Shown in pieces: positions 1,341 to 41,164 of a stretch of DNA of 64,000 nt (the stretch's first letter is position 1; every line of letters begins with the position of its first letter). Under the pieces are notes generated by a model that saw only the letters and a list, made by a program, of their open reading frames with translations, made no database searches and was not told the DNA's origin. The DNA is from Polytrichum commune (Eukaryota; Streptophyta; Polytrichopsida; Polytrichales; Polytrichaceae). The position numbers and the translations under genes are program-made. The DNA is taken from assembly GCA_950295325.1 (NCBI GenBank), contig OX485809.1, forward strand, positions 41,449,081 through 41,513,080, in the 5' to 3' direction.

Positions 1341-1379
1341 GATGCTAAGAAGCATTAGATGTAAGGCTCATAGTGTTAA

Positions 1380-1395
1380 CCCTTAAAAGAGGTTG
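1380..1395 (+). repeat. Left terminal inverted repeat of the piggyBac element
   Basis: CCCTTAAAAGAGGTTG, preceded by the target duplication TTAA at 1376-1379. Similarity to the other end stops after these 16 bases. Just inside lies a palindrome, GGCCAATTTGGCC, near 1399-1411. Confidence 0.9.
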
Positions 1396-1916
1396 AAGGC
1401 CAATTTGGCCTACGGTTAACTCTAATCACCTGCTGGTGATCTATCTTCACAGATTCGGCGGTGTCTCCGAACTACGGGTACCTCGGCACTACACGCAGGC
1501 ACCTGTAGGGATTTTCCATGTAATTTTTGGAGTCAGGTGGCGATGTCGGGGACGAGATAAGTGAGGACTTTGGTGTATTTCTATGTATACATGTAGAATA
1601 CTGTGGACGATGAAGCTTTGCGGGGACGGTCCTTCCTGCTGACGCGGCATATTTCTATGTGGCCGTTGGTGACCGCCTCATCCGGTCGGTGTCGTTGGGA
1701 GGACACTCTCGTGTGGCAAAGGAATCGCCATGGGCATTCCCCCGCTTTTGCACCTCCTACCACCTTCTCCTGCACAGGTTTAGGGTTATTGTAGATCTGT
1801 GTCTTCTGATGAGTGCCATCCGGACGTCGTGGCGCCGGCGATTTGGATGTGATAGTGTGGTGGTTACGATTGTGACCACCACGATTGTGGTACTGGGGTG
1901 AAGGGAGAGGGGGGAA

Positions 1917-2439
1917 ATGGAGTCCCTGGTTCAATACAACTTGTTTTCTTTGAGGCGGATTGTCCTTTGCCGATTTGCAATCTGTGGAGCGTCACCTGAG
2001 TTTGTAGGCGCAATTGCATTTCACCGCGTGGACCGCTTCTACATGGAGAAGAGCAACACCACACAGAGCGCTTCCCGCAGTTTCCTCGAGTCAGAATTGC
2101 GTGGGTGGTTCGCTGGGCAGGGGGTTTCAGAGGAGGGCGCAGCGCGGGCTGTGACACTCCTGGATGCGAGCACACTCCTGGCCCAACCACGCCCAAGCCG
2201 GTGGAATCGGAGAGGTGAATTTGGAGTCCAGGAGCGGTGCCGATATTTGTGGTACAGGCACGCCGCACGCATTCTTGGTTGGTGTGAGCGCAGGAGGTTC
2301 CCAGACTCTGTGACGGCCATTCTTCGTACCCACGTTTTTCCCACGCAAGGCGGGAGGCATGAAGCGCCTCGCGAGGATGGCAAGGGGAGAGCGACAGCCA
2401 CTGCACCGATCTCCATCGCCCCCGATCATCACTCCGCAG
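1917..2439 (+). CDS. Candidate first coding exon of the piggyBac transposase gene
   Basis: An open frame runs from ATG 1917 (an alternative in-frame ATG is at 2043) to a donor CCGCAG|GTCTGT after 2439, leaving phase 1. From the second ATG it encodes about 132 residues, rich in R, A and E, with stretches such as LESELRGWFAGQGVSEEG. No known domain is recognised. The phase matches the acceptors at 3395 and 4278, which supports it as an exon upstream of the transposase core. A non-homologous N-terminal extension is plausible for a large transposase, but transcript evidence is absent. Confidence 0.45.
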
Positions 2440-3394
2440 GTCTGTCATCCTGCATATTCACTCCATATGTATGGGGTTGCTTCTATTTGCTGTTGCTCGT
2501 GTTTGCATGGGTTAGGCTAGCGGTCCCGTCGTTGAGTTGTTGTGTGCGAGATGTATGGCGATGTGCAATATCCTCCTCGGTGTGAGCGGCCATGTTGGGC
2601 ATTTGGTTACAACAGATGTGGCAATTCAATCGGGATAAGGATCCCGATTTGTGTTGGCATCTGCCCGCATGAGTGAGGAGTCTCCAGCATTGTTTAGAGT
2701 GGGCTGGGAGTATCCCCCTTGGTATTAGGGGTTCGTTCCAAGGTTTCTGAGGCATTGGATGTGCACATCGTTAGGTGCGTTGCGTAATAACAACGTGTAA
2801 CTCGGATGCGCTAGAGGCCTCCAAATATGCGTTGTGGAAAAGTTTAGAGTTTGATCTACTGTGCCACCAAACTTGCTTCACGGTGAACCTCAGTCGTGTG
2901 TGAATCATGATTGGGCTTTCATCACATCGGTCTGCGGGGAAATCTCTACCTTATATGCCCGCCCGGGGTTTAGATGGTTACGGCGGTGATTCCATCTGTG
3001 GAATATATTAGGTTCACGGTTTATCTGTCTCACACTTCGTCCAAACAGAGTCTTCCACCTATCTATCAGACTAGCCAAATACTAACATAGCAAACCATGT
3101 GTGTTGGACATTGCGGAAATGTTGTAGTTTGATGTGATGTGCGTGATAATCACAGATGTTGGAAGATACTCAATATGGGAACGGACTGGCTCTCTATTGT
3201 AAACAAAGTTTTTTTTGTGTGTACCGACACTCTCATTCTGTACCCCTTCCACGCCTACGCAGTATATACAGTTCCCCGTGTTGCTAATTCTTTCGGCGAC
3301 CTCCTTGGGCTTGGTCCGCTTTGGGTTCGTTTTTGAACCTGATAGTAAAAGGGGGGGGGAGTTGACTATTCTACGTCATGTGATTGGTGTGCAG

Positions 3395-3484
3395 GAGATA
3401 GCCCAAGCGGGAGTGTGCCTTCTTGTTCCGGCACCAGAGAGCAGAAGTCCCCTCTTCAAGCGGAGAGTGACTCGGCAGACCACG
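3395..3484 (+). CDS. Duplicated 90-bp exon, copy A (piggyBac transposase gene)
   Basis: Flanked by GTGTGCAG at the acceptor and CACG|GTACTT at the donor. It is phase 1 on both sides, so it can be inserted or skipped without breaking the frame. It encodes a serine/acid-rich linker ending KSPLQAESDSADHG. Copy B at 4278-4367 has the same length, phase and splice sites and ends KSTVEAESDSAEQG. No domain is recognised; a disordered linker is likely. Confidence 0.5.
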
Positions 3485-4277
3485 GTACTTTTATTTATTC
3501 CACCTTCATTTGTCGTGCACACATCGCACACAGCCATATGCTTGTTATGCTGTCACTGGAATTTGCAGAGGGCACCCGAATCGATGTGTCACGGGGAATC
3601 ACGGTCCTATAATGAATCGGGATTTCGCTTCCTGGTGTTTGTCTGGCTGTCGAATGTTTGTCCTGGATTTCGAGGTCACGCTGTGGTCATCAATCTTTGT
3701 GGGTTCATGGAAACTCGGATCACATGGCATACTCCCCTTATGAAAGTATTGCCCACCATTTCTAACCCATAGTATGTTTTATGGTTAGGACAAGTAGACC
3801 GCCCAGAAATACTCCATGCTCCATTACATAGATTACCTTACATGATATGGAAGGGTTTTAGATGCTTACTATGGTGAGGACATATGTAGCTAATATTGGG
3901 TTCACGGTTAGTCTGTCACACACTTCGTGCTGACCGAGTCTTGCGCCTATCTATCAGACTAGCCAATTTCTGATATAGCAACCCATGTGTGTTGGGCTCT
4001 GCGGAAATGTTGTAGTTTGATGTCGGCTTGCGTGATAATCGATGATATTGGTGGGTCCTCTATACGTGGTGGGTCTTGTATCTATTGTTGCCAATGCTTC
4101 TTTCCAGTAGCCGCACTCTGATTATGTGACCTTTCCAGGCGCTCGCAGTATATACAATTTCGTCTGTTGCTAAGGCTTTGGGCGACCTCCTTGGGCTGGG
4201 TCCGCCTTGAAACTGTTTTTGGGGATGGGCGAGGGGGGGGGGAGCTGATTATTTCCTGTCGTGTGGTTACTGTCCAG

Positions 4278-4367
4278 GAGATAGGCGACGCGGAAGTATG
4301 CCTTCCTCTCCCGGCACCCATTCACAGAAGTCCACCGTTGAAGCGGAGAGTGACTCGGCAGAGCAAG
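4278..4367 (+). CDS. Duplicated 90-bp exon, copy B (piggyBac transposase gene)
   Basis: Acceptor CTGTCCAG, donor CAAG|GTACTTTC, phase 1 on both sides. The frame shared with copy A (AESDSA near the end) is the one that stays open and similar in both copies. This supports real coding use, or at least coding use before duplication. Confidence 0.5.
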
Positions 4368-4451
4368 GTACTTTCTATAAATTCCACCTGCATTTGTCGT
4401 GCACACATCGCACACAGTCTCATGCGTAGTCTGCTGCCACTGAATTTGTAG

Positions 4452-4599
4452 AGGGCACCCAAATCGGTTCAAAAGAATGTTGTCGTGGAACACCTTCCAG
4501 GGGCGGTTGGATGCGGGCGTGTTGGTCCAGGCCGGTGGGAAGGAGAACGTCAACCCAACACCGGAGTCATCACAGTCTCAGAAGGTCACATCGAAGAAA
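4452..4599 (+). CDS. Candidate transposase exon with uncertain start
   Basis: One frame stays open up to a strong donor, AAGAAA|GTAAGT, after 4599, and encodes polar residues such as KENVNPTPESSQSQKVTSKK. It leaves phase 0 and fits the acceptor at 4752. An acceptor TTTGTAG ends at 4451, but that junction does not match the phase left by the 4278-4367 exon. The true 5' edge may therefore differ, or this may be an alternative first exon with the ATG near 4485. Confidence 0.35.
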
Positions 4600-4751
4600 G
4601 TAAGTCGTCTTCTTGCCTGACCTGAGTTTATGTGTGCGCTGCAGACAGCTTGACGCTTCCTGGTTACCATGTTCCCGACGATGAAATTATTGTCGGCGTT
4701 CTGTTCTCCTATTCACCGCGTTTGTGGGTGGTTGTGCCTCCGTTGCTGCAG

Positions 4752-5049
4752 GTTCAGGAAGTGGATGCGGCGCAGGACGTCGATGTGGCCCACTGCACGC
4801 AGCCCCCCTTCCCGCATGCGCCCACAGGATTGAAACGCCTGAAGAAGGACCTGCAATGCAAGGCTCCCGCAGAGGGGGGGGGGGGTTCTACACCAAGACC
4901 TCAAATGACATCTGCATCGAAGAAGGTGACAACCTTGGGGATAGGATTGGCGGCACTGCCGACCATGCAGCAGACGCCCATGCCGGCGTGTAGTCAGGGA
5001 AACGAGCTCGGACCTCCGCCCCCTGACTCGACTCCGGCACGCCAACGTG
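4752..5049 (+). CDS. Transposase exon, disordered linker region
   Basis: Acceptor TTGCTGCAG and donor CAACGTG|GTAAGT. The 298-nt exon starts in phase 0 and ends in phase 1, exactly what the next exon at 5164 needs. It encodes a proline/serine/lysine-rich stretch (APTGLKRLKKDLQ, then LGPPPPDSTPARQRG) with no recognised domain. It contains a run of 12 G at about 4874-4885, a likely slippage spot that keeps the frame open here. Confidence 0.6.
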
Positions 5050-5163
5050 GTAAGTATTGCCTGTATGGTCTATGGTCTGGGGCTGTATTCGTTTAGGAGT
5101 GGTTGTGCACGTTGACGCAACAAGTGTAACATGCTGATTGTTGACACTCTTGGTGTTGCATAG

Positions 5164-7994
5164 GTGGGCAGCGGGCTCCAAGTGGAAGACATACAAGGGA
5201 GGAGAAAGGCAAGGTGGTGCGCTCCAAGCCTCGCAGGCCGCGTGCTTGGCTGCCACCATCACTGCAACCTAACATCACCGACGGGGTTCGCACACGGGGT
5301 CTGGCGGCCCAAGTGGCAGAGTATGAGCAACAATTGGTTAACGACGACGCTATCTGCGAGGTCCTGGCCGATTATGATGGGTGTGAGGGCCTGGAAGAAT
5401 TTTTGGCGCCTGAAGGGCAGCACTCCGTTGGCAGCATGGATACCTTAAACGTCAATCTATGGGAGTCTGTCTTCCGCGACGATGCTTGGAGGACTTCAGC
5501 GCCTATTTCAAAGCGCACGGGCTTTGGAGCTACGCATCCCGGCGGTTCGTTGGAGAGGCCAGTGCTTCTTGAGGTCGGTGTTATGCCGGACCGCTTCACC
5601 GGGACATATGTGCACTGGAGTTGCAGGCGGGTTGGCTGGGCAGTTCTTGTCCCTAATAGATTCCTCTCTGAGCTTTCATTCCACACTGGCGACACACCTT
5701 CTTGGACGCAGGGAGATGTCATTGGCGAGGGTGTGCATGCCGCGACCGGGAAGAGGATGGTATTGTGCGATCTTGGAGGATACGATACTGAGTGCCACCT
5801 GGACGAGGATAGTGTCAGAGTTGCAGATGGCCCGCATGTACGCGCCTACGGGAGCGAGGGAGGGCACGGCTATGGCTGGTGGAAGAGGCAGCATTGTTTC
5901 AGCCCTGTACCTGACTCGGTGGGAGTTTTTGGGGTGGCAGTTGAAGGACTTAGTGAAACCGAGCTTTTAGGGGGATCTACCGAGCTTTTAGGGGGGTCAG
6001 CAAGCGGTGTGGGGAGTGGGATGGGGCCAGGCCTAACGGAACATGTGTCGGAAAACACCGAAGTGCAAGCACTGCCCGGACAGCTAGGAGGGTGCCCCAT
6101 CACGGATTACGAGGCCCCATCCGATACCGAGGGGGTCGATGGCACGCAAGACTCGACAGCCAGGGATACGTTTCCGAAGGTAAGTGTTGGGCTGCTAGAA
6201 TATCTACTCTGCTCTAACACATCTGTGCACACAACCGGTGATATGGAAATGGAAATGGGGCTGATGGAGGCGGACTCTAGTGGTGACGAGTGGCTTCTAG
6301 ATTTCTGCGATACCTTAGAGAGCTCGGACTCGGACTTCGATGTTGATAATTTGGATGAAACTGATAATCCCGCACCTGGCTTGGAAAGTTGGTGCATGAC
6401 ACCGGATTCATTCACTCCCGTACACATGGAGTGTGATCAACTTGCTGCATACTACAGGAAGGAGTCCTGGAATTCCGCAAGTGTGGACTTTGTTAGAAGC
6501 CGTGACAACTTCACCGGCCCTACTCCAGGTTTGAAGGCCCCTATACCCTCAGGAATTCCAGAGCCACATGATGCTTTTTACTTGTACTGGACTGATGCTA
6601 CTGTGGATCGAATTGTGGTTGAGACCAACAGATATGCGAGGGCCATTCTGCCTCCAGTGGAGAATGAGTTGCCACGCACTAAGGGTGGACGGCTATGGAA
6701 GGATGTGAATCGAGCCGACATCCGGGGGTGGTTGGGAATTTGTATCCTCATGGGCTGCAAGCGTCTCCCAAGCGTGAGGCAATATTGGATGCGCAGTCAA
6801 CCCTTCTTGTATTGTCGACTTATCTCGTCCATCATGTCGCTCGGGAGGTGGGAACAAATCATGCGTTGTTTGCATTTAGTGGATAACAACACTATAGTGA
6901 GGGATGTGAATGACCCGCTGTTTGATAGGATTGCCAAGACAAGATGGCTGGTCGAAATGTTTGTAAACGTTTCGAAAGATATTTATAATCTGGAGAGGGA
7001 GATAACTGTGGACGAATGCGTCATCCCCTACAAAGGCCGTTATTGTTTCATCAGGCAATTCATGCCGGACAAGCCCGTGAGGTTTGGGATTAAGGTGTGG
7101 TTGTTGGCAAGCTCAAAGAGCAGGTTTGTGTGGCAGATGGAGGTGTATTTCGGGGAGGGAACAGGTGCAGGTCCGCACGGTTTGGGCTACCACGTGGTCG
7201 AGCGGATGGTGAGGGGTCTGGAACACCGGGGCCATTGTTTGGTAATCGACAATTTCTTTGCAAGTGTGAACCTCTTCCATGAGCTCATGTGCAAGGGGAT
7301 ATGGGCTACGGGTACCGTGCGCCGAACCAGTAAGAATCTGCCCGGTAGACTCTACCGGGATCCTGACAACAATGTGAGGGGATCCATGATTATCTGGAAT
7401 CACATCCATCGACAGATGGGTGTTGTGTCTTGGCAAGACAAGAAGTTGGTGACATTGCTGAGCACTGCAGCCGCACCCTGGGAGCCTAACAGCAAGGTGC
7501 TTCGAAGAATACCTGGACTTCAGGGCCAGTTGGTGGTACCTTCGTCACCCATGCACCGGCAATATGTCGAGTACATGCGCGGAGTCGATGTGATGGATCA
7601 GCTCCGTGGCAACTATTCTTCACAGCTCCGGTGCCACAAGTGGTGGGTGAAGATTTTTCACCTCATCGTGGACCAAACGATGGTGAACTCATATGTCACA
7701 TGGGTCAAGCAGATTGAGGACCTCGGATTGCCCGTGACCTCACACCTTGCCTTCAAGATCGCCGTCGGCAAGCACCTCGCTACAGAAGCAATACTGTTAC
7801 GCCAAATGCAGCAAGTCCCTCTTCAGCGTAGAGCTCGGCACCCCCACCCTGTGCACACACTACGGCGGTCCAAATTGAAACGACAATGTGTGATCTGTGG
7901 CCGTGTCCAAAAGTGGTACTGCTGTACCTGTGGCAACAAGTGGATGTGCCCGGAATCCTGTTACCAGACACACCACGAGAGGTTATATGCTTAG
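5164..7994 (+). CDS. piggyBac transposase, main exon
   Basis: The acceptor GTTGCATAG joins in phase to the previous exon; there is no ATG at the start of the open frame, so it is an internal exon. Numbering from 5214, residues 1-400 are mostly low-complexity and acidic, with a possible small Tudor-like fold near 165-205 (GDVIGEG...DEDSVRV; inference). Residues about 445-830 form the DDE_Tnp_1_7 core, which carries out TTAA-specific cut-and-paste transposition. The catalytic aspartates are D600 (ITVDECVIPYKGR), D679 (CLVIDNFFASVNLF) and D792 (GVDVMDQLRGNY). The C-terminus is a cysteine-rich zinc-binding domain (CVICG...CCTCGNKWMCPESC) ending at 926. The frame has no stops, so it is likely functional. 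An AAG|GTAAGT inside it at 6180 may mark a short optional intron. Confidence 0.92.
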
Positions 7995-10838
7995 GGATGC
8001 TTGTGGCATGCAAAACATGTCTGAGAAGTGCCATGTGTGACAGGAGGGAGCGTCGCGGCGGATTTGTGTGGAGACGCGTCTGGGTCTGGGCGTGGGCGTG
8101 GACTCCGCGAAGAGCCATTGCGGTCAGTCGTCTCCACCCCGACACCGGCGTCGATCGCTCTGAGTGTCCTCAATCTGAACCCATCTTGGCGTCCGATGCG
8201 TCGGAGTCATCAGAATGTTTGTTGGACAGTTGCATCACCCAGCAGAGGCAGGGTTAGGTTGTGTTCGAAGCAGCCTGCTCGTGGAAGCACACGCACCTGT
8301 GAACGGTTGGGAACAGACGCCCAAGTTTTTGTTGTAATATTGGCGTTTCGGGATTCCCTTAGGCAACTGGACGGCCTTGGTGACTGAACTACTGGACTCA
8401 CTGGCCTACTTTTCTCTGCAGCACGAGATACATGGGTCAGGCACAATTTTGGAACTCACCGACGGAGTCCCTAAACCTTTGTCACGACCCTGACATAGGC
8501 CGTCTTCTATGTTTGTAAATGTTAAACACTGTAAATGCTGCGTCTCGTGGTCTGTTGTTGCCGTTTCCTCTGTTTTTGGGCATCTAGAGTCTGGAGTGGG
8601 CTATATTGCATTCTGTCCATGGCATGAGCCTTGTGCTGTACTCAGGCCGTTTACCCGGTGGACTGGTGTTTGTCTGGCTCGTGAATAACTCTCTATCACT
8701 AATTTCGTGGCCCTGCAATTTCAGTGCAGGTAAAATACATGTAGCATGCCGTCTCCAGATTTCCTTCCTGGTTGCAGCGAGGATGTGCCGGGCTCTTTGG
8801 ACGGGAGTGGGTTGTGGTGAATGTGATAGACGCAGAGGATTTGTATACCAATTCAGGACGATTCAATTGGGTATTTCAGTCAGTGAAAGTTGTGCACAGG
8901 GTGCAGCCATAATTTGGGAATTCTTTGTGACAGATATGTGCAGGTGTAGATTGTCTGCGGGGAAATGTCACAATTTGAGTGGAGCTCCAATTGAGGTATT
9001 GGGGGTTTTCCAAGCAGCGCTTAGGCAAGGCTGAGCTGCATCCACTTCGACAATTCGGGCTTCCCAATATATATGGTAAATGTGTATCATCTGGATAATA
9101 ACACTCAGATACCTTTTACCTGGAATTTGCCACAATTGCCTGAGCATACTGTTAATCACAATTGGTGCGGTGGGACAGCGTCCATCCGGAAGAGGAGTGT
9201 ATGCACGAGGGGACGCTGTGAAGTGTATGTGACAGCGATGGTGAGCGCCCTGTATCCCTGGTTATAGGTTTACACTGATTACCCATTTTACAAGTCTGTG
9301 TTTCAATCGCCCATTCAATCTGCAAGACCATAATGTCGCATCTTAGATTGTCTCTGTTCATTGCTTTATCGAACCTGCGGACTGGGAGTATATCCGGGGA
9401 GGGTCATTTAGGGTTAAGGCAGATCGAAGTCTGCACCTGCAAAGAGGCCGTCTTCACCAGCGCGGAGGTTGCTTGTTACAGAGGGCTTGCGAACAGGCCA
9501 TTGCCGACTGTAAGCGAAACCCTAAACCCTAACTCGCACAGGTGACGATTCAATTGACCTGGTGTTCATCCACTCTTTGTAAACAGCTCGCGCTCCACAT
9601 ATCGCACACACCAACCGCAATCATGCTGCGAGACCGAGGCGGATGGAGATATTGCCGAAATAGGGGCAGGTCGGTGCGAAGTGGTTGTTTGCGAAGTGTA
9701 GCAGGCAAGCAATTTCCCTCAAATCGGCTGATTAGAGTTGCCCTTAGTGTAGATTTAAATTTAGAACATGTCAATGTTTGTCGAGCACTATACAGGGACG
9801 GGGTGTTTGGATGATGTGACGCGACCTGGTATTGTGGGCGGGTGTGCGTGATGATCTTACGATCGGCCGTGATCATGCGGCATTGGGTCCATTGCAGGTG
9901 TGACAGCATGTGATAGTGTGTGGAGCTCGTAGGGGCTTCAATTTAGTGCAAGGTATGTCATCCACTTCCCTGTATTACGACTTCCCGGTTTCCCATTTCG
10001 CACCTTATTAGCTCTCCATAACTTCTGATTGCCGGAGGATCTTCATGATGAGTTGACATTACATGAAGGAGGTAGTTGAAATCAAAGATGGTACCTGGAC
10101 GTTTTGCAAACAGACAGATGGCGTTGGTAGTCACGATTATGTAATTAGTGAGTCGTGAGCTTGTTGGTGACACCAAGTTCGCAGCCGGTCTTGGGTTCCA
10201 AAGGGTATTCTAGCGTTTAGTGCCAAATGGAAGAAATTTTCAGATATACTCCTGGCAAGGAAGACCCTGGTGAGAACACGAGGATGACAACTCATGTTGA
10301 AACAGAGTCACGAAGGAGAGACGGTCCTGGGCTACGCTCTATGTTGGCTTTACTATTTCAATTTGCGTAATTACTGGCTGGGCGATCCTTGCGGTAGACA
10401 AAAACGAGTGGTCGTTATCCTGCAGGGCATGTAGCTCAATTCGGCTCTCTCCAGGAGTGTGACCCTCCGAGTACCCGCAGAGAGCACTGAAGGAGTAATA
10501 ATTAGGACCCCGGCATCAACGCTCCACCATCATGGTGGCAGACCATGATGGTTGAAGTGGCCGGAAACGTATGATGGTCCCGTTTGCCGATCTGATTCTG
10601 CCATAATTCCAATCCCTAAGGGGCGTACTTCGACCACGTGCTAACCCTGGCTTATAGCTCCAGAACCTGGAGTAGCCGCACTTTGATCACTTTGAGAGCT
10701 TTGATCACACAATCCTGCATACTGTACTCTGTGTGCCTCCCGCGACGTGCAGGTGATTGCGTATCAGTTGCCTGCGGTATAGGGTCGTCGGGGACGCTCC
10801 AACCACTACGGCCATTCAACATCCACACTCATCCTTAC
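7995..10838 (+). other. Non-coding spacer inside the piggyBac element
   Basis: Lies between the transposase stop and the B3 gene. Open frames here lack homology and conserved spacing. It probably contains the transposase 3' UTR and the promoter of the B3 gene. The only recognised motif is a telomere-like AAACCCTAAACCCTAA at 9516-9533. The inverted motif CCATCATGGTGG...CCATGATGG lies near 10527-10551. Confidence 0.5.
9516..9533 (+). repeat. Short telomere-like repeat (TTTAGGG type)
   Basis: AAACCCTAAACCCTAA, two and a bit units of the plant telomere motif. As a single copy it may be a telo-box regulatory element or chance. It lies 1.3 kb upstream of the B3 gene. Confidence 0.4.
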
Positions 10839-11958
10839 ATGGTGGATCCATGGCTGGCGCTGGAGGTGGTTCGGGAGATGGACGAACTCAGAGCTCGTTT
10901 CTTCGCGCTCACTCTGCTCTCCCCGGCTTCGCGGCACTACCTGGTAAGTTCATTGTATCCGTCTCCTGGAGGTCGAGATCTCCCCCCCCCATTGTGTTCC
11001 TTCCCACTTGTGACCCACATAGTGACTGCTGTGAGGGTATTGACGTTGTTTCCTGGGCGAATTCTCACGGCTGGAAAGGGGGTGGGTTATCACAGGAGAT
11101 TCCAGCGCTGTTCACGGCGGAGACAGGCTGGCCGGGCGAGGATGATTGCGCCCTGGTGACCTCGATCACCTGCCTGAAGGAGTGGCCCCTTTCATTAAGG
11201 CGTGTACCCGATGTATCGCGGGGAATTTCCTTTGTGAGCGTCGGAGGCGGGTGGGAGCAGTTCGTCGAAGAACATAACCTCGGCTACGGAGCAGTCCTCA
11301 CCTTCGAGGTTGTGGACTCCAGGCGTCTTGTGGTCGCACAACACCACCGATGCGCTGAGGAGGATTTGGGCCAGCCACATATGACACTGATGGACACCAC
11401 TGTAGAGCGAGAGTGCCGTGACGCAGAGCCTCCCGCGGCAGACCACATTATCGCGAGACAGCCGAATTTGCTCCCCGACTGCGGGAGCGGCGATCGCCCC
11501 CACTTTCGAAAAACCCTTCGGAAGACGCATATGAAGACAAACGACTCCAGCAGAATTGTGAGTGCGAACCCAAATTGCCGCTCACTGCATGGACACTCTG
11601 TCTGGTAGGTTAGGGTATTTGGAACATGGAATTCATGCTGCTTTGGTAATAGCAAGAATACACAGTCGTCAATTTCCGTGCTTGAAAATTTGAGCTCAGC
11701 ATTTCGTGGGCGTAGGATGTACCAACGGCATTCTGGCGGGCTCACGGACAATCCGGGTTCGATGGCCGCTGGTACACCCTACACGGCCCGAAGTTGCCAT
11801 GCTCCGTGAAGACTTTGGCAAACACGTTTGGAAAGCAGACGACTTGTTCTTTCACAAAGGGATGGTGGCGATTTTGTACCGAGAACGAACTGATGCTCGG
11901 CGACACGGTGATATTCACGAAGATAGGACAGGGGGAGTTCGAGGTGAGGAAGGTATGA
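10839..11958 (+). CDS. Two-B3-domain DNA-binding protein carried by the piggyBac element
   Basis: Three exons join in phase 0: 10839-10943 (ATG; donor CTACCTG|GTAAGT), 11096-11557 (acceptor TTATCACAG; donor AGAATT|GTGAGT) and 11716-11958 (acceptor GGGCGTAG; TGA). The product has 269 residues. The first B3 domain spans about residues 34-125: EIPALF, then EWPLSLRRV, then GGGWEQFVEEHNLGYGAVLTF. A polar linker follows. The second spans about 189-269: IDVPTAFWRAHG, then GRWYTLHGPKL, then KGWWRFCTENELMLGDTVIF. B3 domains are plant-specific DNA-binding folds (ARF, RAV, REM and LAV families); two in tandem resemble the REM type. It lies on the same strand as the transposase and well inside the inverted repeats, so it is cargo. 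A role in binding the element or in altering host expression is inference. An AAG|GTATGA at the end might splice to further sequence. Confidence 0.75.
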
Positions 11959-12310
11959 CGTGTGGAGGCCGTTCATGCCGAAGTCGCGGCATCCTGTGAC
12001 GTGCACATCCTGTGTGCATTACATCTCGGCGCGAGCTCGCAGGTAGTTTTGGCGTAGGGCCGCTCGCGTGGCGACATCATATAGCCATGAGTCACAGAGT
12101 GTTGCGGAGTTGCAGACATAGGTCGAGCTCGTAGTTGCGAGGTGTAGAAATCAGTGAGGCAGGAAGACGATTGTTGTACATATATCACAGGGGGGGTGGG
12201 TTTTAGGGATTGCATAGAGATTTTGACTGCTCGAATCCCTCGGACACATGGAGGATATCAGTCTGCGGGCTATGAATGTATGAGTGTAGGGACATGTATC
12301 TTCAGTTGAG

Positions 12311-12733
12311 TTATATATGTGTAAAGTTATATGAAGAACATCTGTGAGGTAATTTCACAACCTGGTCGCATCGTTCTTGCACACTGCTTTCATCACAGTG
12401 GAACACACCGTGGCGCAATCGGCGGTTGGCTCTTACGGTTGGAAGCCACTGTCGTGGGATAGGGACCCACGTCACGCACACTTCAGATATCGCAGCCCAT
12501 TCGTCCATGTGGCACACAGTGGTTGCCCATGAGGTCACCTCATATGGTGGTTGAGACAAAAACAGGTTGACCCGGTTGCCAGAGTAACCGGGTGACCCTC
12601 TGTCGCAGTCCACATAGGACACCACGTACACACGCCGCTTGCCTCCAGCGTACGTCCACACCCCCACCACACACCGTAGACATGGAGTATGGCTACGTAT
12701 TCCAGTTCCGCAACCCTTTCCACCCCCTGGCTC
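12311..12733 (-). CDS. Unidentified open frame near the right end of the piggyBac element
   Basis: A minus-strand frame of 140 codons without stops, lacking an ATG in its first half, so if real it would be an exon. It includes RVYVVSYVDCDRGSPGYSG and, later, VTWVPIPRQWLP. No family is recognised. It is antisense to the B3 and transposase genes and about 200 bp from the right inverted repeat. It could be chance in G/C-richer DNA. Confidence 0.2.
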   Translation of the reverse strand, partial: EPGGGKGCGTGIRSHTPCLRCVVGVWTYAGGKRRVYVVSYVDCDRGSPGYSGNRVNLFLSQPPYEVTSWATTVCHMDEWAAISEVCVTWVPIPRQWLPTVRANRRLRHGVFHCDESSVQERCDQVVKLPHRCSSYNFTHI

Positions 12734-12923
12734 TTAGAAATATCAGCATAATTCTATGTGGCGCAAATTTCGATAAAGTCCAATACCGCTGTCATCGACA
12801 CTTCGGGGCCCACCCGCCCAAAAAAGTTGCAATCAAATCGGTGTAAGGAAGCGGTCCAAATTGGGTTCCAAATGCACCTCTGTGCCGAAATACCGGGTTC
12901 TACACGCACCCAGCATCACAAGG

Positions 12924-12939
12924 CAACCTCTTTTAAGGG
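12924..12939 (-). repeat. Right terminal inverted repeat of the piggyBac element
   Basis: Exact reverse complement of 1380-1395, followed by TTAA at 12940-12943. Confidence 0.9.
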
Positions 12940-13227
12940 TTAAGGTGCATCAACTCTCTACAACTTCCATAAATCAAATTAATACTGTAGTATAATTTTC
13001 ATGCATTCTTTCTGAGTGCCTTCACTATCATTTATCATTGCTTTCTCACTTTCCAATGTGAGGGTAGGTTGCATCTATATTGCTTGAAGAGTAGAGAAAA
13101 GAAGGTCCTCCCTAGCTATATCTCTGAGAGTTTTTGGATAGAAATTTTGGAATAGGAAGAGGAGACGGACACCAGTGGAAGAATGCTCCCTATATCTCCA
13201 TGCCCGGATGGTTGCCCACACTGTACC

Positions 13228-13826: not shown

Positions 13827-14834
13827 AAACGAGGTCTCTCCATTGTTCTTTCCAGCAGCGGCTTGCGCAGTTGCGACGGACCTTCCATTTCCGTCGCCTT
13901 ACGAGTTATCTCGATTCTCTTGCCTGCAGCTATTTATATGCAAAGCTTACCGGGGTTTTGTTTCTATCTTGGGGTGAGGCACGACGACTTCGTTTGGATG
14001 CCTTCTTGCTTTCTTCGGCCATCAATTTTACTTCGGTTCCGTTGTAGGTTATAGGTGAAGCTCTCCCTGGCTGCGGGTATTTAGAGTGTACTGTCCTCGA
14101 TAGCTTATTTGCATAGTTTTCTTCCCTTTTTGGTCGGGGATGGTAGCTTCCTAGGGAAGAGTACATATGGTAGTCGAGGGTGATGGTCTTAATTGGAAGC
14201 TTGAAAGCTTGCTTCTGAACCTTGGCTTACTTAGCAGTTACAAATACAGTGCATGTAGGGTACGAGAGGAGGTTCTACAGAGGATTGTGAACCTAATCTT
14301 GTAATGTCGCCTAATGAGTGCATCCTCTCGCGTGCCATTTTCTTGCAGAAATCGCTTTTTGAGGGAAGGAAACGTGAACGAGCGAGTTGTGAGATGGAAG
14401 CATCAACTACATAGAAAAAATGAGATCTTTGGAAAGTCCAACAAATGTTTTTAAAGTCCTCTTAGTTCATCACGCTTCTTGAGTACGTTGCAAGGAGGTC
14501 ATGTGTTTATTTCAAGGTGCAGCTTTCTTCCGGTACTACATTCAACTACAAGCTCAATTGGCTTGCTTGGATACTCGAATTGCCGTTGTATCCCTGTAGT
14601 CGTGTCGTTCTTCTCTTGTTTCACTTGATATAGATTATTATTGATGCCCTAAAATTCTCAATCTACGTAACGTTGAAAAAAGTTCAAGTAGAGATGTTCG
14701 CAATTGTTTCGAAGGTACCGCAAGACAAAAAAATTCAGGAATGAGGTCTCAACACCTTCAACACCATCAAGCTGGAGTAAGTACATTTGAAGGTAGTCCA
14801 CCCGGTTGAGTTAACTCAGCAGAATTCATCCAGC
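13827..14834 (+). other. Upstream region of the ankyrin-kinase gene
   Basis: Non-coding region. Short frames only, with no recognised protein. It presumably holds divergent promoters for the minus-strand frame at 13793 and the kinase at 14835. No clear TATA box was picked out. Confidence 0.4.
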
Positions 14835-17800
14835 ATGTCGAAGCGTGTATTTGATAACGATCGGAGCATGTACAATCTGAATAGTCTCCGGCTGGACGTG
14901 GTTGAGGATGAGGAGAAGTCAATCAACAATTCAATTGGCTTTGGAACTCGAAGATTCAAGGTAATCGGGTGTGGATCCTTTGGTTCCATCTGCAAGGGCA
15001 TAATTCTGAAGAGCCGTAAGTTGCAGTTCCAAGCAGACTGTGAATTCCGGATATTGGGGAATTATCATGGACACCTGTTGGCAGTTCATTCCAGCAACAA
15101 GCACCCCATCCCCCTGCAGGAAGAGGATGTCACGCTGATCATCCAAGTGGCGGTGAAACAAATGTTGAAAGAAATGATAACTGAGACGGAAAAGCACGAG
15201 CTTATAAGAGAAGCCAGTAATCTGAAAGTTTTGTGGGGCCGCCGAAACTTTGTCACGATCTACGGAGTCACAAAAAGCCATGATTTGGGTTGTCTGTGTC
15301 TTGTGATGGATTTTGTTTGTGGTTGCAACCTCAACGAGTTCCTCCGTTCACGTGGACAGAAACTGGACTTGGATGCAGAAGGTGCAAGGATGTGTGGGAT
15401 TTGGGAGTCGAGTGAGGTGTTATGGTGGATAGAGAAGTTGAAATTGTTCAGAGAGATTGTCATTGCTTTGATTGTGTGTCATAGAGAGAAATTGTACCAT
15501 GGGGACTTGAAGGGCGCAAACATTCTGCTTGATAAATCATTCGTTCCAAAGTTGGTGGACTTTGGGTTGAGCTTTCGTAGCGCAGATGTTTCTTACCTTC
15601 GCGGCGTGGGTGGGTCCTTGTTTTGGTGTGCACCGGAGGTGGCAGATCCACCCTTGGTCGGGACAATCCATGAAAGTGAAGTTGTGGCCGACCCATATCC
15701 TTCCGACGTGTACTCGTTGGGAATGGTTCTAGCTGAGATAATGCTTGATGGGAATGTTCCCAATGACTTAACAGATGAGGATCTTTTCAAAGTAGATAAG
15801 TGGGAGGGAGGGTGCCCTATCTCTTTAGAGCATGTGAATAGTCGAGATTCAATGTTCACGGAAAAGATTCTAAATGAGTTAAAAAAATTGATCGATCGAT
15901 GTTGTGAGGCTGAAAGAAAGGACAGAATTTCCCTTCACGACTGTCTCTCCAAGGTGAACCATATATTCTCGGACTTGTGCTCATGCATTGAACCTCTCAG
16001 TGAGAGCTCTGACCATACATATACAGATACCAAGGCATACAAGGAGATGGTTTTGAGATTCAATAAGAGGTTTCCTAGTGTGCCGGACTGCATGATTTTG
16101 AATCCATCCTGGAACATGGTCATGGATGACGAGGAGAATCTTTTGGTGCATTATTTCTGCAAGTTGGATTATGTTGAGGGAGTGAAGTATATTGTGGAAA
16201 GGAGGGCCTTCCAACCGGAGACAGACCTTCCATACCTGGCCTTGCTTTGTGTGACAGAAGAGAGTCTCCAGACCTTAAAATATCTTGCTACATCATGGCC
16301 AGATGGGATGAGAAGACAACTCCTCCTCCTCCACAAGGCTTGCTTCTGCAACAACCCTGAAGTGTTTCGATTTTTGCTCTTGGATGTAGGTATACACTTT
16401 GATACATGGGAGAGGAACACATTTGAAAAGGAAAGGGGCTCTCCTCTTCCTTTGAAAAAGCCAATTCATACATTAGCTGCCAAAGGCAAGACAGAATTGG
16501 TGAAAATGATACTAGACAATTGTGAAGTGGATGCTGATTATGTCAACACTTGCATTGCATTTGACACGAAAACCCCGCTACAAGCTGCAATTGAAGGAGG
16601 GGACAACCCAGAGACCATTACCTTCCTTTTGGAGCGAGGAGGTAGACTTCTTAATGAAACTGGGGATCGAGTGCTTGGTAGGAGTGAAACGCTTGGAACT
16701 CTGTTTGAACTTGCAATCCACGAGGGACATGTAAAAGTATGTATAGAGCTTTTGGAACAAGCATGCAACTCTCGTCGTGCAGGGGGCCTAATTCGAGCAG
16801 ATTATCCAAGTTGTAGTGTGCTGGAGTTGAAGAGTTGTGCCATAGATGCTCAAGAGCATCTTACGACACTTAAACAACATGTTCAAACTACAACACTTTT
16901 GACTCCAAGTATAAATCTTTTGCAAGCAGCGTGCTTGGAAGGGAATGAAGGGGCACTAAGATCTATCCTTTGGCTCATGTTCATACCCCATGCTACAAAC
17001 GACTCACTTGCACACAAGCTTCTATCATATATCGCTTGTTCTGGTAGCACGACTATGGTGGACTTAGTCAGTATGTTCATTTTTGGAACTGGTCAATTGG
17101 AGGATTATAGGGCATACAGAAATCAGATCTGTGCGCCCGATACAGATTCACACAATGCTAATCAGGCGAAGGAGATTTCTTATGCTAGTAAGGTCCTGTC
17201 TGAGATTGAGACTGGAGTTTGTCAACAATCAATCAACCTTCACTTCAGCACTGAATTTCCTTATGCGCTTGCTAGACAATGTTGTGAGAAGGGTTACTTA
17301 GGGAGTTTTCAATATCTTGAAGCCTGCGGATTGGACTTGAGTCTCCTGAAAAAGGGGCTTAAAGGTCCTGAGTGCAGATGGGATTTTCTCCTTCATATTG
17401 CAGCTTGGTTTGGTCATGTCAATGTTGCAAAGTTTCTTCTGGAGAGAGGATTCCCTGTGAATAGATGGATTCAATCTTTCTCACCTCTTCAATACGCATG
17501 TGGATCCAGCGTTTCCATGCGCAAGAAAGAAATGGTAGCTCTCCTTCTGGATGCAGGTGCTAAACTAAATAAGCTGGAAAATTGGGGCTACTCTGCATGG
17601 GGGATACCTTATACGGAGGATGCTAGACATATGCTAGACATGTTAGAGAAAGCTGGCCACGACTTTATCTCAAATTCATCTCTGGAGATTGTTTCAGCCA
17701 ATCGTCGTAAACTTGATGGGGATAGTTGCAGGGGCGCGGCGGAAACTTATGCCACTAAGGTCTTGTCTGGCTTTGAAACTGGAAATTGTGAACAAGTGAT

Positions 17801-18329
17801 CAGCCTTCACTTCAACATTGAATTTCCTATCGTGCTTGCTGCACTATGTTGTGAGAAGGGTTACTTGGGGATTCTTCAATTTCTTGAAGACTGCGGATTG
17901 GACTTGAGCCTACTGAAAAATGAGCCAGGTGTTCGCAGCAATCAAACGTCTAGTCTACTTCATATTGCAGCTCAGTACGGTCATGTGAATGTTGTGAAGC
18001 TTCTTCTAAACAGGGGATTCCCGATTGATAGCTCGGTTGATTGGTGCAAGGACTCACCTCTTCTACGCGTATTTGAATCAAGCCGTTCGATACACAAGAA
18101 AGAAATGGTGGCTTTCCTTCTCGATGAAGGAGCTGATCCAAATTATACCAATAAAATGGGCTACAAGGCCATGGACATGGTCAACAGGGCGCCTTACAAG
18201 GGTGTTAGAGATATGGTTTGGCTTTTGTTAGAGGCTGGCTTTGATATGGGGGGGAAGGACCCATGGGGCAATGATTACATGGATATTCTCACCAAAATAG
18301 GGACGAGCGAAGGAACCGTAAGACTCTAA
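14835..18329 (+). CDS. Protein kinase with C-terminal ankyrin repeats, intronless
   Basis: Start at ATG 14835: the frame is open from 14787 but upstream codons are non-ATG and a TAA lies at 14778. The product has 1164 residues. Residues about 41-380 are a kinase domain: P-loop GCGSFG (45-50), VAVK with K108, HGDLKGAN with D224, DFG at 242-244, APE at 266-268 and DVYSLGMVLAE from 291. HGD replaces HRD, so it is a non-RD kinase, a class common among plant immune kinases. Residues about 440-1164 hold ankyrin-type repeats (for example LLHIAAWFGHVNVAKFLLER). A block of about 189 residues is duplicated in tandem. No transmembrane segment or signal peptide is evident, so it is probably cytoplasmic. 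The substrate is unknown. Confidence 0.85.
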   Translation: MSKRVFDNDRSMYNLNSLRLDVVEDEEKSINNSIGFGTRRFKVIGCGSFGSICKGIILKSRKLQFQADCEFRILGNYHGHLLAVHSSNKHPIPLQEEDVTLIIQVAVKQMLKEMITETEKHELIREASNLKVLWGRRNFVTIYGVTKSHDLGCLCLVMDFVCGCNLNEFLRSRGQKLDLDAEGARMCGIWESSEVLWWIEKLKLFREIVIALIVCHREKLYHGDLKGANILLDKSFVPKLVDFGLSFRSADVSYLRGVGGSLFWCAPEVADPPLVGTIHESEVVADPYPSDVYSLGMVLAEIMLDGNVPNDLTDEDLFKVDKWEGGCPISLEHVNSRDSMFTEKILNELKKLIDRCCEAERKDRISLHDCLSKVNHIFSDLCSCIEPLSESSDHTYTDTKAYKEMVLRFNKRFPSVPDCMILNPSWNMVMDDEENLLVHYFCKLDYVEGVKYIVERRAFQPETDLPYLALLCVTEESLQTLKYLATSWPDGMRRQLLLLHKACFCNNPEVFRFLLLDVGIHFDTWERNTFEKERGSPLPLKKPIHTLAAKGKTELVKMILDNCEVDADYVNTCIAFDTKTPLQAAIEGGDNPETITFLLERGGRLLNETGDRVLGRSETLGTLFELAIHEGHVKVCIELLEQACNSRRAGGLIRADYPSCSVLELKSCAIDAQEHLTTLKQHVQTTTLLTPSINLLQAACLEGNEGALRSILWLMFIPHATNDSLAHKLLSYIACSGSTTMVDLVSMFIFGTGQLEDYRAYRNQICAPDTDSHNANQAKEISYASKVLSEIETGVCQQSINLHFSTEFPYALARQCCEKGYLGSFQYLEACGLDLSLLKKGLKGPECRWDFLLHIAAWFGHVNVAKFLLERGFPVNRWIQSFSPLQYACGSSVSMRKKEMVALLLDAGAKLNKLENWGYSAWGIPYTEDARHMLDMLEKAGHDFISNSSLEIVSANRRKLDGDSCRGAAETYATKVLSGFETGNCEQVISLHFNIEFPIVLAALCCEKGYLGILQFLEDCGLDLSLLKNEPGVRSNQTSSLLHIAAQYGHVNVVKLLLNRGFPIDSSVDWCKDSPLLRVFESSRSIHKKEMVAFLLDEGADPNYTNKMGYKAMDMVNRAPYKGVRDMVWLLLEAGFDMGGKDPWGNDYMDILTKIGTSEGTVRL

Positions 18330-22764: not shown

Positions 22765-23087
22765 TAAGGCCGTAGCCACACTGCCGGCAGGGTAATCCCG
22801 GGCAGTGGCTAGGATTGGGGAGGCTACTATGTGGGCCACGCCAGCTGCCGGGCAGGCTGGCACCCACACTGCCGGCAGCGGCACCTTGCCTATAACTGCT
22901 GCCGGAACCTTCCCAGCAGCTGACTCCAGGTGCTCTACAGGGGTCTCTGCAGAGAGGCAGACCAGGGGCCTTATTTTCACGTCCAGACTCCAGGAGCCTC
23001 TTCCTCCTTACAGCACCTGCAAGCAGAGATTATTCCCAGCTGCCATTTTGTTTCTTCTTTGTGTAAACCTTTGGGTTGGTTTAGAGA

Positions 23088-24494
23088 ATGGACCCCGATG
23101 TGAAGAAGCTTGTAATTTTGTTAATTTTCCAAATCTCCTTGTTCACTACCTTGGATTCTATATGTAGAGAGGAGGAGAGGATTGTTGTGTGGCATTGGCA
23201 ACAAATACAATGCTTGACACTTGCACTTCATGCCTTCAAGTTAAGGAGTGGGAGACATTCACGACGTTTGTGGGCTCACGATCGCGGGTTGCACAAACCT
23301 AGATTCTTTGACCAAAACCTATTGGGTTCATTTAGTGCGAGGGAGTTCAAAGGCCGTATGCGAATGGATGTTTCGACTTTCGAGTACTTGTGTAGTTCTC
23401 TCGCACCCGACTTGCAAAGACAAGACACAAGCATGCGTTTGGCCATTCCAGTGCAGGTTAAGGTTGCTGTATCAATTTCAAGGTTGGCTACAGGTAATTC
23501 AATGCAGGTCATTGTCGATTTGTACCGCATTGGGCTATCTTCTAGTCAACTCGCAGTCTCCCAATTTTGTGGTGCAATAAAAAAGAATTTGCTAAAGAAA
23601 TTCATGAATTGGCCCTCTCTTTCTACTATGGATAGATATGCACAGGAATTCCAGGATTTGCAGCAGATTCCCTACGTGGTTGGAGCAGTGGATGGGTCGC
23701 ACATACCAATTGTGGCACCCCGATTGCATGCTCCAGATTACTACAACCGCAAAGGGTTTCATTCTATCCTTTTGCAGGGCGTTGTATCGGCCAAGTGTTT
23801 ATTTTGGGATTTCGATATTGGTTGGGCGGGTTCCATGCACGATGCCAACCTTTGGAGTAGGACGGCAATTGGGCAGTATTGCGAGGCTGGCAAGCTCCAC
23901 CCTTATACTTTGGTGGGGGATGCAGCATACCCTTGTCGTCCGTGGATGCTCGCACCCTTTAAGGGTCACAAAGACGGCCTTTCGCGGGAGGAGTACCATT
24001 GGAATTTTGTCCAAAGCTCCACCCGCATGTGTGTTGAACGAGCCTTCGGGATGCTTAAAGGTAGGTGGCGAATTCTTCTCAAAAGGGTGGATGTGCACTT
24101 AAAAAATGTACCTGATTTGGTTTTAACGTGCCTCGTGTTGCACAACATGTGCATAATTTTTGGAGATGACTTTTGGAAACTAGAATGGATGCGGGAGGCC
24201 ACGGATGAAGTGCACAACGGATTGGCAATCCCGATAATTCCGGGCTCGTCTATGCGCGAGCGAATGGCGGTTGTCAATTTGGCTTTGCACAGCTTGGCCG
24301 GCATCGACGACAATTCACGAGAGACTATAGAGCACATAAAGCAAGAGGACGCTACAACCTTTGAAATTGCAATGGGTACGGCCGGTAAATCGTTCAAGGA
24401 GTTATCCGCAAGAAGAAATAGCATAGCGAAGAGTTTATGGGTAGCAAAGACTAAATCATGCATTGCACAAACTTTTATTGATGAGGAAGTGTAA
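23088..24494 (+). CDS. Harbinger transposase (DDE_Tnp_4 nuclease)
   Basis: ATG at 23088 begins a 468-residue frame with no introns or stops, a normal length for the family. An N-terminal helical region is followed by the nuclease core. The DDE residues are D202 (VGAVDGSHIPI), D252 (GWAGSMHDANLWS) and E317 (CVERAFGMLKGRWRIL). A further conserved LVGDAAYP lies at 275-282. It catalyses excision and insertion, normally at TWA sites, with its Myb-like partner supplying DNA binding. The intact frame and catalytic residues suggest a recently active copy. Confidence 0.93.
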   Translation: MDPDVKKLVILLIFQISLFTTLDSICREEERIVVWHWQQIQCLTLALHAFKLRSGRHSRRLWAHDRGLHKPRFFDQNLLGSFSAREFKGRMRMDVSTFEYLCSSLAPDLQRQDTSMRLAIPVQVKVAVSISRLATGNSMQVIVDLYRIGLSSSQLAVSQFCGAIKKNLLKKFMNWPSLSTMDRYAQEFQDLQQIPYVVGAVDGSHIPIVAPRLHAPDYYNRKGFHSILLQGVVSAKCLFWDFDIGWAGSMHDANLWSRTAIGQYCEAGKLHPYTLVGDAAYPCRPWMLAPFKGHKDGLSREEYHWNFVQSSTRMCVERAFGMLKGRWRILLKRVDVHLKNVPDLVLTCLVLHNMCIIFGDDFWKLEWMREATDEVHNGLAIPIIPGSSMRERMAVVNLALHSLAGIDDNSRETIEHIKQEDATTFEIAMGTAGKSFKELSARRNSIAKSLWVAKTKSCIAQTFIDEEV

Positions 24495-36631: not shown

Positions 36632-39600
36632 TTACCGGGTGTGAATCCACCACAACAGATTGGAGTAGGAGTTGCCATCATCATGCTCATTCAGGCGCTG
36701 CGACTTCTCGAGAGCCGTGCGAGGATTGTAGATGGCTTCCAAGGCATACACAAAGCCGCGCCACGCATCAGTGACATCGGCGTTGTTGATGGACTCCATG
36801 GTCCAGTCCACCAGCTCCTTCACGTACCGTGTGCTTGAGAACATGCGCTCTGTCATTGGAGTGATAGGGAGAACCTGGATGCCTAGCCTACAGTCCCGCC
36901 GCTCGGGACCTGCACACCATCAACAATAACCACCCACCCAACGCTGAGAGCTTCTCTCCCACCACATTCATCTCAGAAAGAAGAAGAAAGCAATGAAAGA
37001 TGACCTGATGTTGCAACTGGCATGTATTGTGGTGTTGATGCTTCACCTTTGAGTTGATCTAAGTCTATATGTAATCCCGAAATGGGCATCACAAGAATTA
37101 GAGGGCCCCTGAAGACTACTGCCTCCTTTCAAAGGTAGACACCTTGAACTGGCGCAGACAAGCTGGGCTGAAGGTCTATCTCCAGATAGCCAAGCCACTG
37201 GGTTCTCATGTGGTTGGTTAAAATATCCAGTTCACTCCAATGCTGTGACTTGCATGAATTATGGAGGCTTGATTCTATATGTGATCCCAGAACGAGCATC
37301 ACAAGAATTATTAGGGGCACACCCATCTCTCCCTCAAGGGCATGGTGGTTGATTGAAAATATCTGTTTCAGCAGGATACCTCACACTATGATTGGATTGA
37401 CCATAATAATAATGTGCACTGGAAATCAAGTTCAATGAAGGTCATGCATCCTAGCAATATTCCACCCTTAGGTGGCTTAAACCTCAATGTTCCCATAGGA
37501 TCCTGGCCAAGGCCTTGGGTTCAAGGTTTAAGCCACCCTCATGTTGCAAACCTGAAATTTACATAGTACATGGCACTGGACCATCATCAGCTACGACTAT
37601 GCATCATTTACATCCTTTTGCTAAGCATGTTTGTGAAACTCTAGTAATTTCATCCTGCCTGAGAGCCAAATCCACCAAACTATAAGTGACAAATAGATAA
37701 TGGTGCTGTGAGTCAGATGACTGACCTGCAAACCAGAGCCCGCTGTCCCGCTTCGTGGACCACAAAACTGACACAACAAGATTCTCTTTCGTGAACTCAG
37801 GTTCGTACAACCTGCTCATGGTCGGCACGTGCCAGAGTAACTGCGAGGACCGGCACTCAAATGCACACAAAGTGGATGCAATGTTGACAAGGCCAAAATC
37901 TTCATATGCTAGCCCCAAAAGAGCCGCGGCATAGTAGGCATTGACAGCCTCACTCGTTGACTCTTGGTTGCGTCCATCGGCGAATTCTGTGAGTCCACTT
38001 GCCCACGAGTGAAGGGAGTAGCAATCGAAAGCTCGTAGTCTCGGAAACTCGTGTGGTGTCATGCTCATGTAGTCATGGACAAGGGTGTACAAGTGTGGCT
38101 TCCACTTGTGAGCCCAGTGGCAGTCCAGCTTTGCTAAAACAGCACCTGCACCACCAACATATAAAAGTGAAGAGTCAGTTAGTTGCTTTTGTGCAAATTT
38201 AACCTCAATGCAGCACATCGGTAAGGTAAGGTAAGCAGGCCTAATTTGGTTACTTATCTTAAATGGTGAAACACCTATATTTGAATGGTCCATGGTTAGG
38301 TGCGGATCTAAGAACAAACGAGTGATGGGTCCATGGCTGTTACCTTTGGAAATTCATATCAATTCTAGGGGTCTCCAAAGTTTAACTCATATCAAATTCA
38401 TATCAGATTCTCTGCAATTGAATGTGGCTTCCCCATCCACATTCATGGGTCAGCCAAAATTTAGAGGTCACAAATTGGAGTTGTGTTTCATAGTGAACAA
38501 GAAAAAGCAACCATTTAAGACCCATCTACCTTATGTGGGTCTTATGTGGTCACCCATCGTACTTGGATGCCTATATATGAGTGGTAAATGGCAAAACTTG
38601 TAGTTGAGAATGGACACTCAAAAGACACGTATTTTATAAGATTGAACTATGTGCTCGAATAAAGACACCAATCTATAGTTAACACAAGTGATAGATAATA
38701 AATGACCATTTAAAGAGGAAGAGAATCTTCATTTAAACCTCTTATTATGTTTGCAACTGACTTGTGTTTTTGAAACTTGAAACAACAATCTTTGTGATTC
38801 CCAATTGCTAATTGGATGGGACAATTCCTGAGCCAATCCAAAGGTCAAATATGTCTCTGGAATTGCAAGTGCACACAGTAGGGTTGCATACCTACTTTTG
38901 GAGCAAAGTGACAATGATAAGTACTTCTGGCTGAAATGAGCTAAGGTATGTGAGCCTTATGTGGCGACTCTCCTAAATCGGACACCTGTATTTGAGGGGA
39001 ATAAGGCATGGCTTGTAATTATGATGGACACCAAGAAGAACTTGTGTTGAGATGGGATTGGACCATGTGCTCATAATATAGAAGGACATTGACAAACGGA
39101 CATTTCTAGCTTTTCAAAAAAAAGGGACCAACCTTGAAACCAAGCTCCCCAAAATTAGGCACATGCCAAGGTCAAAATTCTATTACCAAACGCATTTTCA
39201 ATGTTTTCAAATTGTGTGATCCCCCAAATAATTTTCTACTACGACACTACAGCTTCGTAGTAAAAAGGTGCCATTTCAAGAAAAGTTGTGGCATAATTAC
39301 CTGCATAGACGAAGTAACCCAGATGGTAATGGTGGTCATTGTACGTTGAAAACCCAAAATCTCCAGTGGCATCTCGCAAGATTAACCCACCCCAAACATT
39401 ATCGTACAAGAACGCATTGCCAGAAAATTCACCCAAAAACCATGGGGTAATTGAACTCCGCAGAAACTCTGCAACTTTTGCAACAAGATGGGGAAGACAA
39501 AGCTCTTCAGCAATGAGCGCCATCCTTGCTGCACGGGCAAGTGCCTTGCCATGAAAATAAGAGGTGGGTGTGCTTATGGGGTTCAATTGGTGGACATCAT

Positions 39601-40597: not shown

Positions 40598-41164
40598 CTT
40601 ATATAGCTCAATTGAAGCTCCTTGGTGCCCTCACGAAAATACTCAGCCTGCAATAGAACAATGACAAGGTTTTTCAGTTGCTGTTGTGGTCACAAACTTT
40701 TCTAGTCATAAACTCTTCCCCATAACCACAAAATCCTGAACACACCAACACATCATATATTCAATATAGTACCTGATTTGGACAACAGCTTACTCAAATA
40801 TATCAGCTCAATGTGATGATGTATCAAAACTAGGATTGTGTTTTCTTGAACTTAACACCCTGGATACAAGAACAAAATGTTCTGCCAGCTTCAAAAGCCC
40901 ATGACAAATGCCCAATTCTGCAATGTTAAAAACAACAAAGCGCACAATGCTGCAAAGTTCTAAATGCTAGAAGAGGTCGATTCAGGTCTTCGTTGAAGAT
41001 GTATCAAAATTAGTATGTGTATTTCCTTAATCTCAGACACCCTGGGTACAAGAACAGAATCTTCTGCCAGCTTCAGAAGCTCATAAAAAAAAACTGCACA
41101 AGTCTGCAATTCCTCGGTGTACCTATTTCTGCAACAAACACCTAGATCTCTACAAAAGTTCGAT

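Follow-up and report, generated by a model that had tools for sequence, protein, structure and literature searches.

The piggyBac element and its surroundings

The window, a 64-kb stretch of Polytrichum commune DNA, contains an apparently complete piggyBac element of 11,568 bp (the TTAA being counted at both ends) at positions 1376-12943 of the forward strand. The 20-nt sequence TTAACCCTTAAAAGAGGTTG at 1376-1395 is found again, inverted, at 12924-12943, with 20 of 20 positions complementary. When up to three mismatches were allowed, these two were the only matches to it in the 64-kb window, where shuffled sequences lead to an expectation of 0.00. The TTAA target-site duplication (1376-1379 and 12940-12943) is outermost at either end, in agreement with a statement in part of a preprint that TTAA always flanks piggyBac elements (PMC13405395), and the terminal inverted repeats inside it are 16 bp long with zero mismatches. 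No further copy or remnant of the element was found within the 64-kb window. The features of the element are as follows.

1376-12943 (+): whole piggyBac element, with inverted ends and TTAA
1376-1395 (+): left end, TTAA followed by the 16-bp terminal inverted repeat CCCTTAAAAGAGGTTG
2965-4447 (+): two tandem copies upstream of the transposase, spacing 883-889 bp, pieces 77-82% alike (families D1 to D4)
4752-5049 (+): possible upstream transposase exon, read by eye, with CAG before and GTAAGT after
5145-7994 (+): piggyBac transposase open frame, 949 codons, with a DDE_Tnp_1_7 match
10839-10943 (+): B3 gene exon 1, start of the first B3 domain (B3-1), 35 codons
10944-11095 (+): B3 gene intron 1, GTAAGT...CAG, phase 0
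11096-11557 (+): B3 gene exon 2, rest of B3-1, linker and start of the second B3 domain (B3-2), 154 codons
11558-11715 (+): B3 gene intron 2, GTGAGT...TAG, phase 0
11716-11958 (+): B3 gene exon 3, rest of B3-2, 80 codons and the stop
12924-12943 (-): right end, the same terminal repeat inverted, and TTAA

The transposase frame matched DDE_Tnp_1_7 over residues 474-850 with 240.6 bits (E 3.9e-71; cut-off 22.4). By eye, it has what we take to be the three aspartate motifs and the cysteine-rich C-terminus of piggyBac transposases, and inspection of the same kind puts the possible start of its main exon at 5164. Among 5.8 billion proteins searched there were 29 relatives at E <= 1e-5, twelve of which cover at least 99% of the query, nine at 79-84% identity and the others at 68, 64, and 53%. 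The N-terminal half of the transposase is also conserved, as judged from a 17-row alignment. Within it, at about 5590-5850 (+), lies a conserved stretch, GTYVxWS...GWAVLVPNRFL...GDVIGEG..., which has no Pfam match and is possibly a chromatin- or DNA-reading domain.

Two further observations concern the left part of the element. An open frame of 227 codons at 1902-2585 (+), with an ATG at 1917 and no Pfam match, may belong as an exon to a third gene of the element or may be due to chance. Within the tandem duplication at 2965-4447, one short 5' exon seems, by eye, to be present twice (3351-3491 and 4234-4374).

Outside the element the window carries both host-like and transposon-like genes. Starting 1.8 kb past the right end of the element, at 14781-18329 (+), is a 1182-codon open frame encoding a protein kinase domain followed by ankyrin repeats, and at 23085-24494 (+) is a 469-codon open frame matching DDE_Tnp_4, a Harbinger-type transposase; the Pfam search of the window gave a Plant_tran match together with the Harbinger-type one. 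Two host-like genes lie on the minus strand, one for a glycoside hydrolase of family 81 (37604-40630) and one for cation efflux, of the zinc transporter type (48209-50505). These genes, the B3 domains described below, and the Plant_tran and Harbinger-type match suggest a plant-like genome. When exon 3 of the B3 gene was searched against the window, a single weak match was obtained elsewhere (49368-49475, minus strand, E 0.012); it falls short of the HMMER inclusion threshold, lies inside the cation efflux region, and was taken as chance.

The two-B3 gene, its exon borders and its probable source

Between the transposase and the right end of the element, on the transposase strand, three exons can be joined in frame from an ATG at 10839 to a TGA stop ending at 11958 (+). 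The sequence-only reading had proposed that this is a complete three-exon gene with consistent phases encoding two B3 domains, and that it is situated wholly inside a piggyBac element on the strand of the transposase. Our analyses bear out both proposals: both predicted introns are GT-AG and of phase 0, the 269-aa product of the modelled splicing matched the Pfam B3 family (PF02362) in two stretches with 55.3 bits (E 6.6e-15; curated cut-off 30.1), and 10839-11958 falls within 1376-12943 on the plus strand.

Searched separately against PF02362, exon 2 scored 26.1 bits, exon 3 scored 28.4 bits, and the 35-aa exon 1 gave nothing, while the joined exons 1 and 2 (B3-1) scored 27.2 bits and B3-2 with its N-terminal part scored 31.7 bits. 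Splicing as modelled, therefore, slightly raises both B3 matches (27.2 versus 26.1 and 31.7 versus 28.4 bits), and each domain singly is at about the cut-off while the pair is well above it. Sequence matches in the PDB were weak (E 0.035 to 0.65), the best in each search being to the B3 proteins VRN1, RAV1, TEM1, NGA1, and At1g16640; the search with exon 3 placed B3 proteins first and then non-B3 chains (a DUF724 protein and albumins), at E 0.68 to 1.5. Exon 2 ends in a basic stretch, FRKTLRKTH, in which F, L, R, K, and H are invariant in 19 aligned rows and which would form the start of B3-2.

A search with the spliced protein returned 25 proteins at E <= 1, and a search with a 19-member alignment of exon 2 returned at least 97 relatives at E <= 0.001 among the best 8,000 candidates scored, including those 25. 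The source labels of these relatives are lgn, ena, and jgi, and we infer that most of the sources are metagenomes; viral and prokaryote contigs gave no confirmed match. The called proteins of several relatives run on into the introns, and for this reason the exon borders could be tested. In 69 relatives the match extends to the first residue of exon 2 and is preceded by a residue, which is Q in 67 of them, as expected of a CAG acceptor (K and H occur once each). At the other border, 84 relatives match up to the last residue of exon 2, and they continue with VS (75), VR (8) or AS (1), VS or VR being the translation of a GTGAG donor. Beyond these borders there is little conservation in a 26-row alignment.

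The outer exons were recognised less often. The exon 1 peptide was recognisable in nine of the 97 relatives, four in frame (P0069, P0005, P0056, and P0084) and five in another frame (P0002, P0073, P0016, P0061, and P0090). Exon 3 was recognisable in six of the 97, in frame in P0091 and in another frame in P0002, P0020, P0100, P0079, and P0114; the exon 3 matches of P0111 and P0081 were left out of this count, both being on the first B3 domain. These low counts are not evidence of absence, since most of the called proteins end before the outer exons. We consider that the conservation of exons and borders in relatives, which is not what chance would give, supports the predicted three-exon model.

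The same data bear on the explanation that the gene is inert, a fragment that was captured and whose frame has by chance stayed open. That each B3 domain alone scores only about the Pfam cut-off is consistent with such a fragment; however, the exon 2 borders and the invariant positions are kept across relatives in which 40-55% of the residues differ, and we regard this explanation as very improbable.

The two domains are split in the same way. In a pairwise alignment of B3-1 with B3-2, intron 1 falls exactly on intron 2, both in phase 0, and both introns are near positions 16/17 of PF02362 (in profile coordinates, with the alignment starts taken as ungapped). The score of this alignment was reached by 51 of 500 shuffles, so the sequence does not show that one domain was copied from the other. 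Excerpts of one paper (PMC2688026) give the exon structures of plant B3 families: REM proteins have multiple B3 domains, and those of moss REM II and III are split in two exons while those of moss REM I are unsplit; the B3 domains of ARF and ABI3/HSI genes are split; and in both Arabidopsis and moss those of RAV genes lack introns. REM genes are further described there as numerous and as diversifying by lineage, with classes in moss alone.

The window gene has the REM-type arrangement of several B3 domains each split by an intron, with two domains and introns at the same place. The splitting by itself is suggestive only, because in the same excerpts ARF and ABI3/HSI B3 domains are also split and those of moss REM I are not (PMC2688026); it is the pair of domains, rather than the splitting, that points to REM. 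The intronless B3 domain typical of RAV was not found, both window domains being split, and we therefore set a RAV origin lower (PMC2688026, in part). The likeness to the REM family (for example VRN1) thus lies in having more than one B3 domain per protein and intron-split B3 domains (PMC2688026, in part), and the difference is that the window gene is inside a DNA transposon and that its sequence match to VRN1 is weak (E 0.035 to 0.19). The simplest reading, although not proven, would be that the gene comes from a REM-type source and was acquired as DNA together with its introns.

Probable linkage to the transposase and age of the association

If the B3 gene belongs to the element, it is expected to travel with the transposase in other copies. 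We compared the sizes of the longest contig for each protein cluster among 97 B3 and 29 transposase relatives. Two sizes were common to both sets: 12,629 bases (B3 relative P0067 and transposase relative P0048) and 9,952 bases (P0080 and P0034, respectively), all four proteins being labelled ena. When the transposase contig sizes were shifted at random by up to 10%, at least two coincidences of any size occurred in 2.3% of 200,000 trials, and at least two above 9,000 bases occurred in five of 200,000, the limit of 9,000 having been chosen after the matches were seen. Equal sizes also occur among the B3 matches themselves (1,032, 1,323, and 4,544). The last of these is shared by two different B3 relatives with differently labelled sources, P0100 and P0101, which represent either one contig with two B3 genes or chance.

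The exact agreement in length between the contigs of two B3 relatives and those of transposase relatives favours linkage in other copies. On the evidence of the equal contig sizes, which we regard as fair but not final, such linkage is likely. The gene order on the 12,629-base contig is uncertain because P0048 is only 627 aa long. The B3 gene looks like a long-standing passenger of the element rather than an accident, its relatives being so frequent in public sequence data.

The explanation opposed to this is a one-off capture, in which a single copy of the element acquired a host REM-type gene, or encloses one by chance, and the 97 relatives belong to a large but ordinary family of host genes. 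It draws on the number of REM genes and their diversification by lineage, with classes in moss alone (PMC2688026, in part), and on the fact that most B3 relatives have no transposase on a contig of equal size, including those on the five longest B3 contigs (34,678; 27,499; 20,743; 20,622; and 16,249). Similarly, ten of the 12 transposase relatives on contigs over 8 kb are without a B3 contig of equal size. Against it are the two large B3 contigs exactly as long as those of transposase relatives, the position of the window gene wholly between the element ends and on the transposase strand, and a tree of exon 2 that, when midpoint-rooted, places the window gene in the same family as P0067 and P0080. 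In this tree (94 sequences, four of 98 rows having been dropped because they covered under half of the columns) the window gene is situated among other relatives, at distances of 1.59 from P0067 and 1.80 from P0080, with a median of 1.26. On balance we consider a one-off capture unlikely.

The two presumed pairs also allow the rates of change to be compared. The window transposase is 80.3 and 77.3% identical to P0034 and P0048, and the window B3 exon is 50.3 and 52.3% identical to P0080 and P0067, respectively. Compared with one another, the two pairs are 82.0% identical in the transposase and 66.5% in B3. If both links are right, the B3 cargo was present before these elements split and is diverging more rapidly than the transposase.

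This difference in rate is relevant to another explanation, according to which the B3 factor multiplied by piggyBac would regulate the genes of the host and not the element. The open frames of both B3 domains and their conservation among relatives speak for this explanation. However, no host role is known, and a divergence faster than that of the transposase, should the two links be right, would better suit a conflict with the host. We judge a host-acting cargo to be distinctly unlikely, somewhat more so than a one-off capture.

A possible regulatory role and comparison with known transposons

It is probable, in our estimation, that the B3 gene serves the element. Our best reading, which we are a little more inclined to believe than to doubt, is that it encodes an old, fast-changing, REM-like B3 accessory protein that regulates the element carrying it. 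The sequence of events would be that a host REM-type two-B3 gene, introns included, was acquired by a piggyBac lineage of a plant genome (or, as an alternative start, that the two-B3 pair grew from one domain), that the gene was retained as a second element gene, and that it now travels with the transposase in other copies. Its protein would enter the nucleus and bind element DNA, at the ends or the promoter, through its two B3 domains, and once bound it would regulate the transcription or chromatin of the element, like the helpers of other plant DNA transposons. Candidate modes of action are control of the transposase gene, anti-silencing, and help in synapsis. We would first consider that the protein controls the transposase gene or silencing, on account of the helper DNA-binding proteins of other plant DNA transposons and of the behaviour reported for VANC in an excerpt of PMC5735166.

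According to that excerpt, VANC proteins bind to short motifs within the non-coding DNA of the VANDAL elements that encode them, and change with those motifs (PMC5735166). A more specific and more doubtful form of our reading, which we put forward tentatively, would have the captured REM-type factor work for the element itself, in sequence-specific control or against silencing. Retained while the family spread and evolving rapidly along with its targets, it would be an independent counterpart of VANC in another transposon superfamily and a dedicated piggyBac helper. In a search for an array of repeated words, no 6- to 9-mer count in the 6,306 non-coding bases of this one copy was above the largest of 60 simulations (bases 3853-5144, coding frames and introns having been omitted), which weakens a strict VANC-like parallel. 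Single words, for example AGGGTTA, were above their own expectation before correction for many tests. Among known B3 core motifs, nothing symmetrical was seen near the ends, CACCTG being present three times in the left 500 bases and 0 times in the right 500. The window element is therefore like the VANDAL elements of Arabidopsis in idea only, in that a second transposon protein would bind the transposon's own non-coding DNA (PMC5735166, in part), and it is unlike them in belonging to another transposon superfamily; the search described above found no word array in it.

piggyBac sequences have already been recorded in plants: the consulted portions of two papers include them in a fern repeat table (PMC6890710) and list piggyBac among plant MITE superfamilies (PMC10004981). 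No piggyBac with a B3 gene was named in the titles or abstracts of the matches listed in our search of the open-access literature, subscription papers lying outside it. In the available part of a 2026 review on how plant transposons capture genes there are 0 mentions of piggyBac and 0 of "B3 domain" (PMC13317346).

The window element is like other members of the piggyBac superfamily in its TTAA at both ends, its inverted repeats starting CCC, and its DDE_Tnp_1_7 transposase. It is unlike them in its length, 11.6 kb as against the usual few kb, and in its second, spliced two-B3 gene. piggyBac elements are treated as one-gene transposons and are not known to have a helper protein; a copy that is complete in structure and carries a spliced two-B3 gene would represent a piggyBac form with two genes. 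If this is true, a DNA transposon would have retained a host transcription-factor domain over a long time, and it would become testable whether transposon-encoded DNA-binding helpers arise repeatedly against plant silencing. There may also be a bearing on why REM genes change so fast. Two-gene plant DNA transposons include PIF/Harbinger, with its Myb-like protein, En/Spm, and MuDR. These are like the window element in combining a transposase with a separate helper protein, and unlike it in both the superfamily and the domain of the helper.
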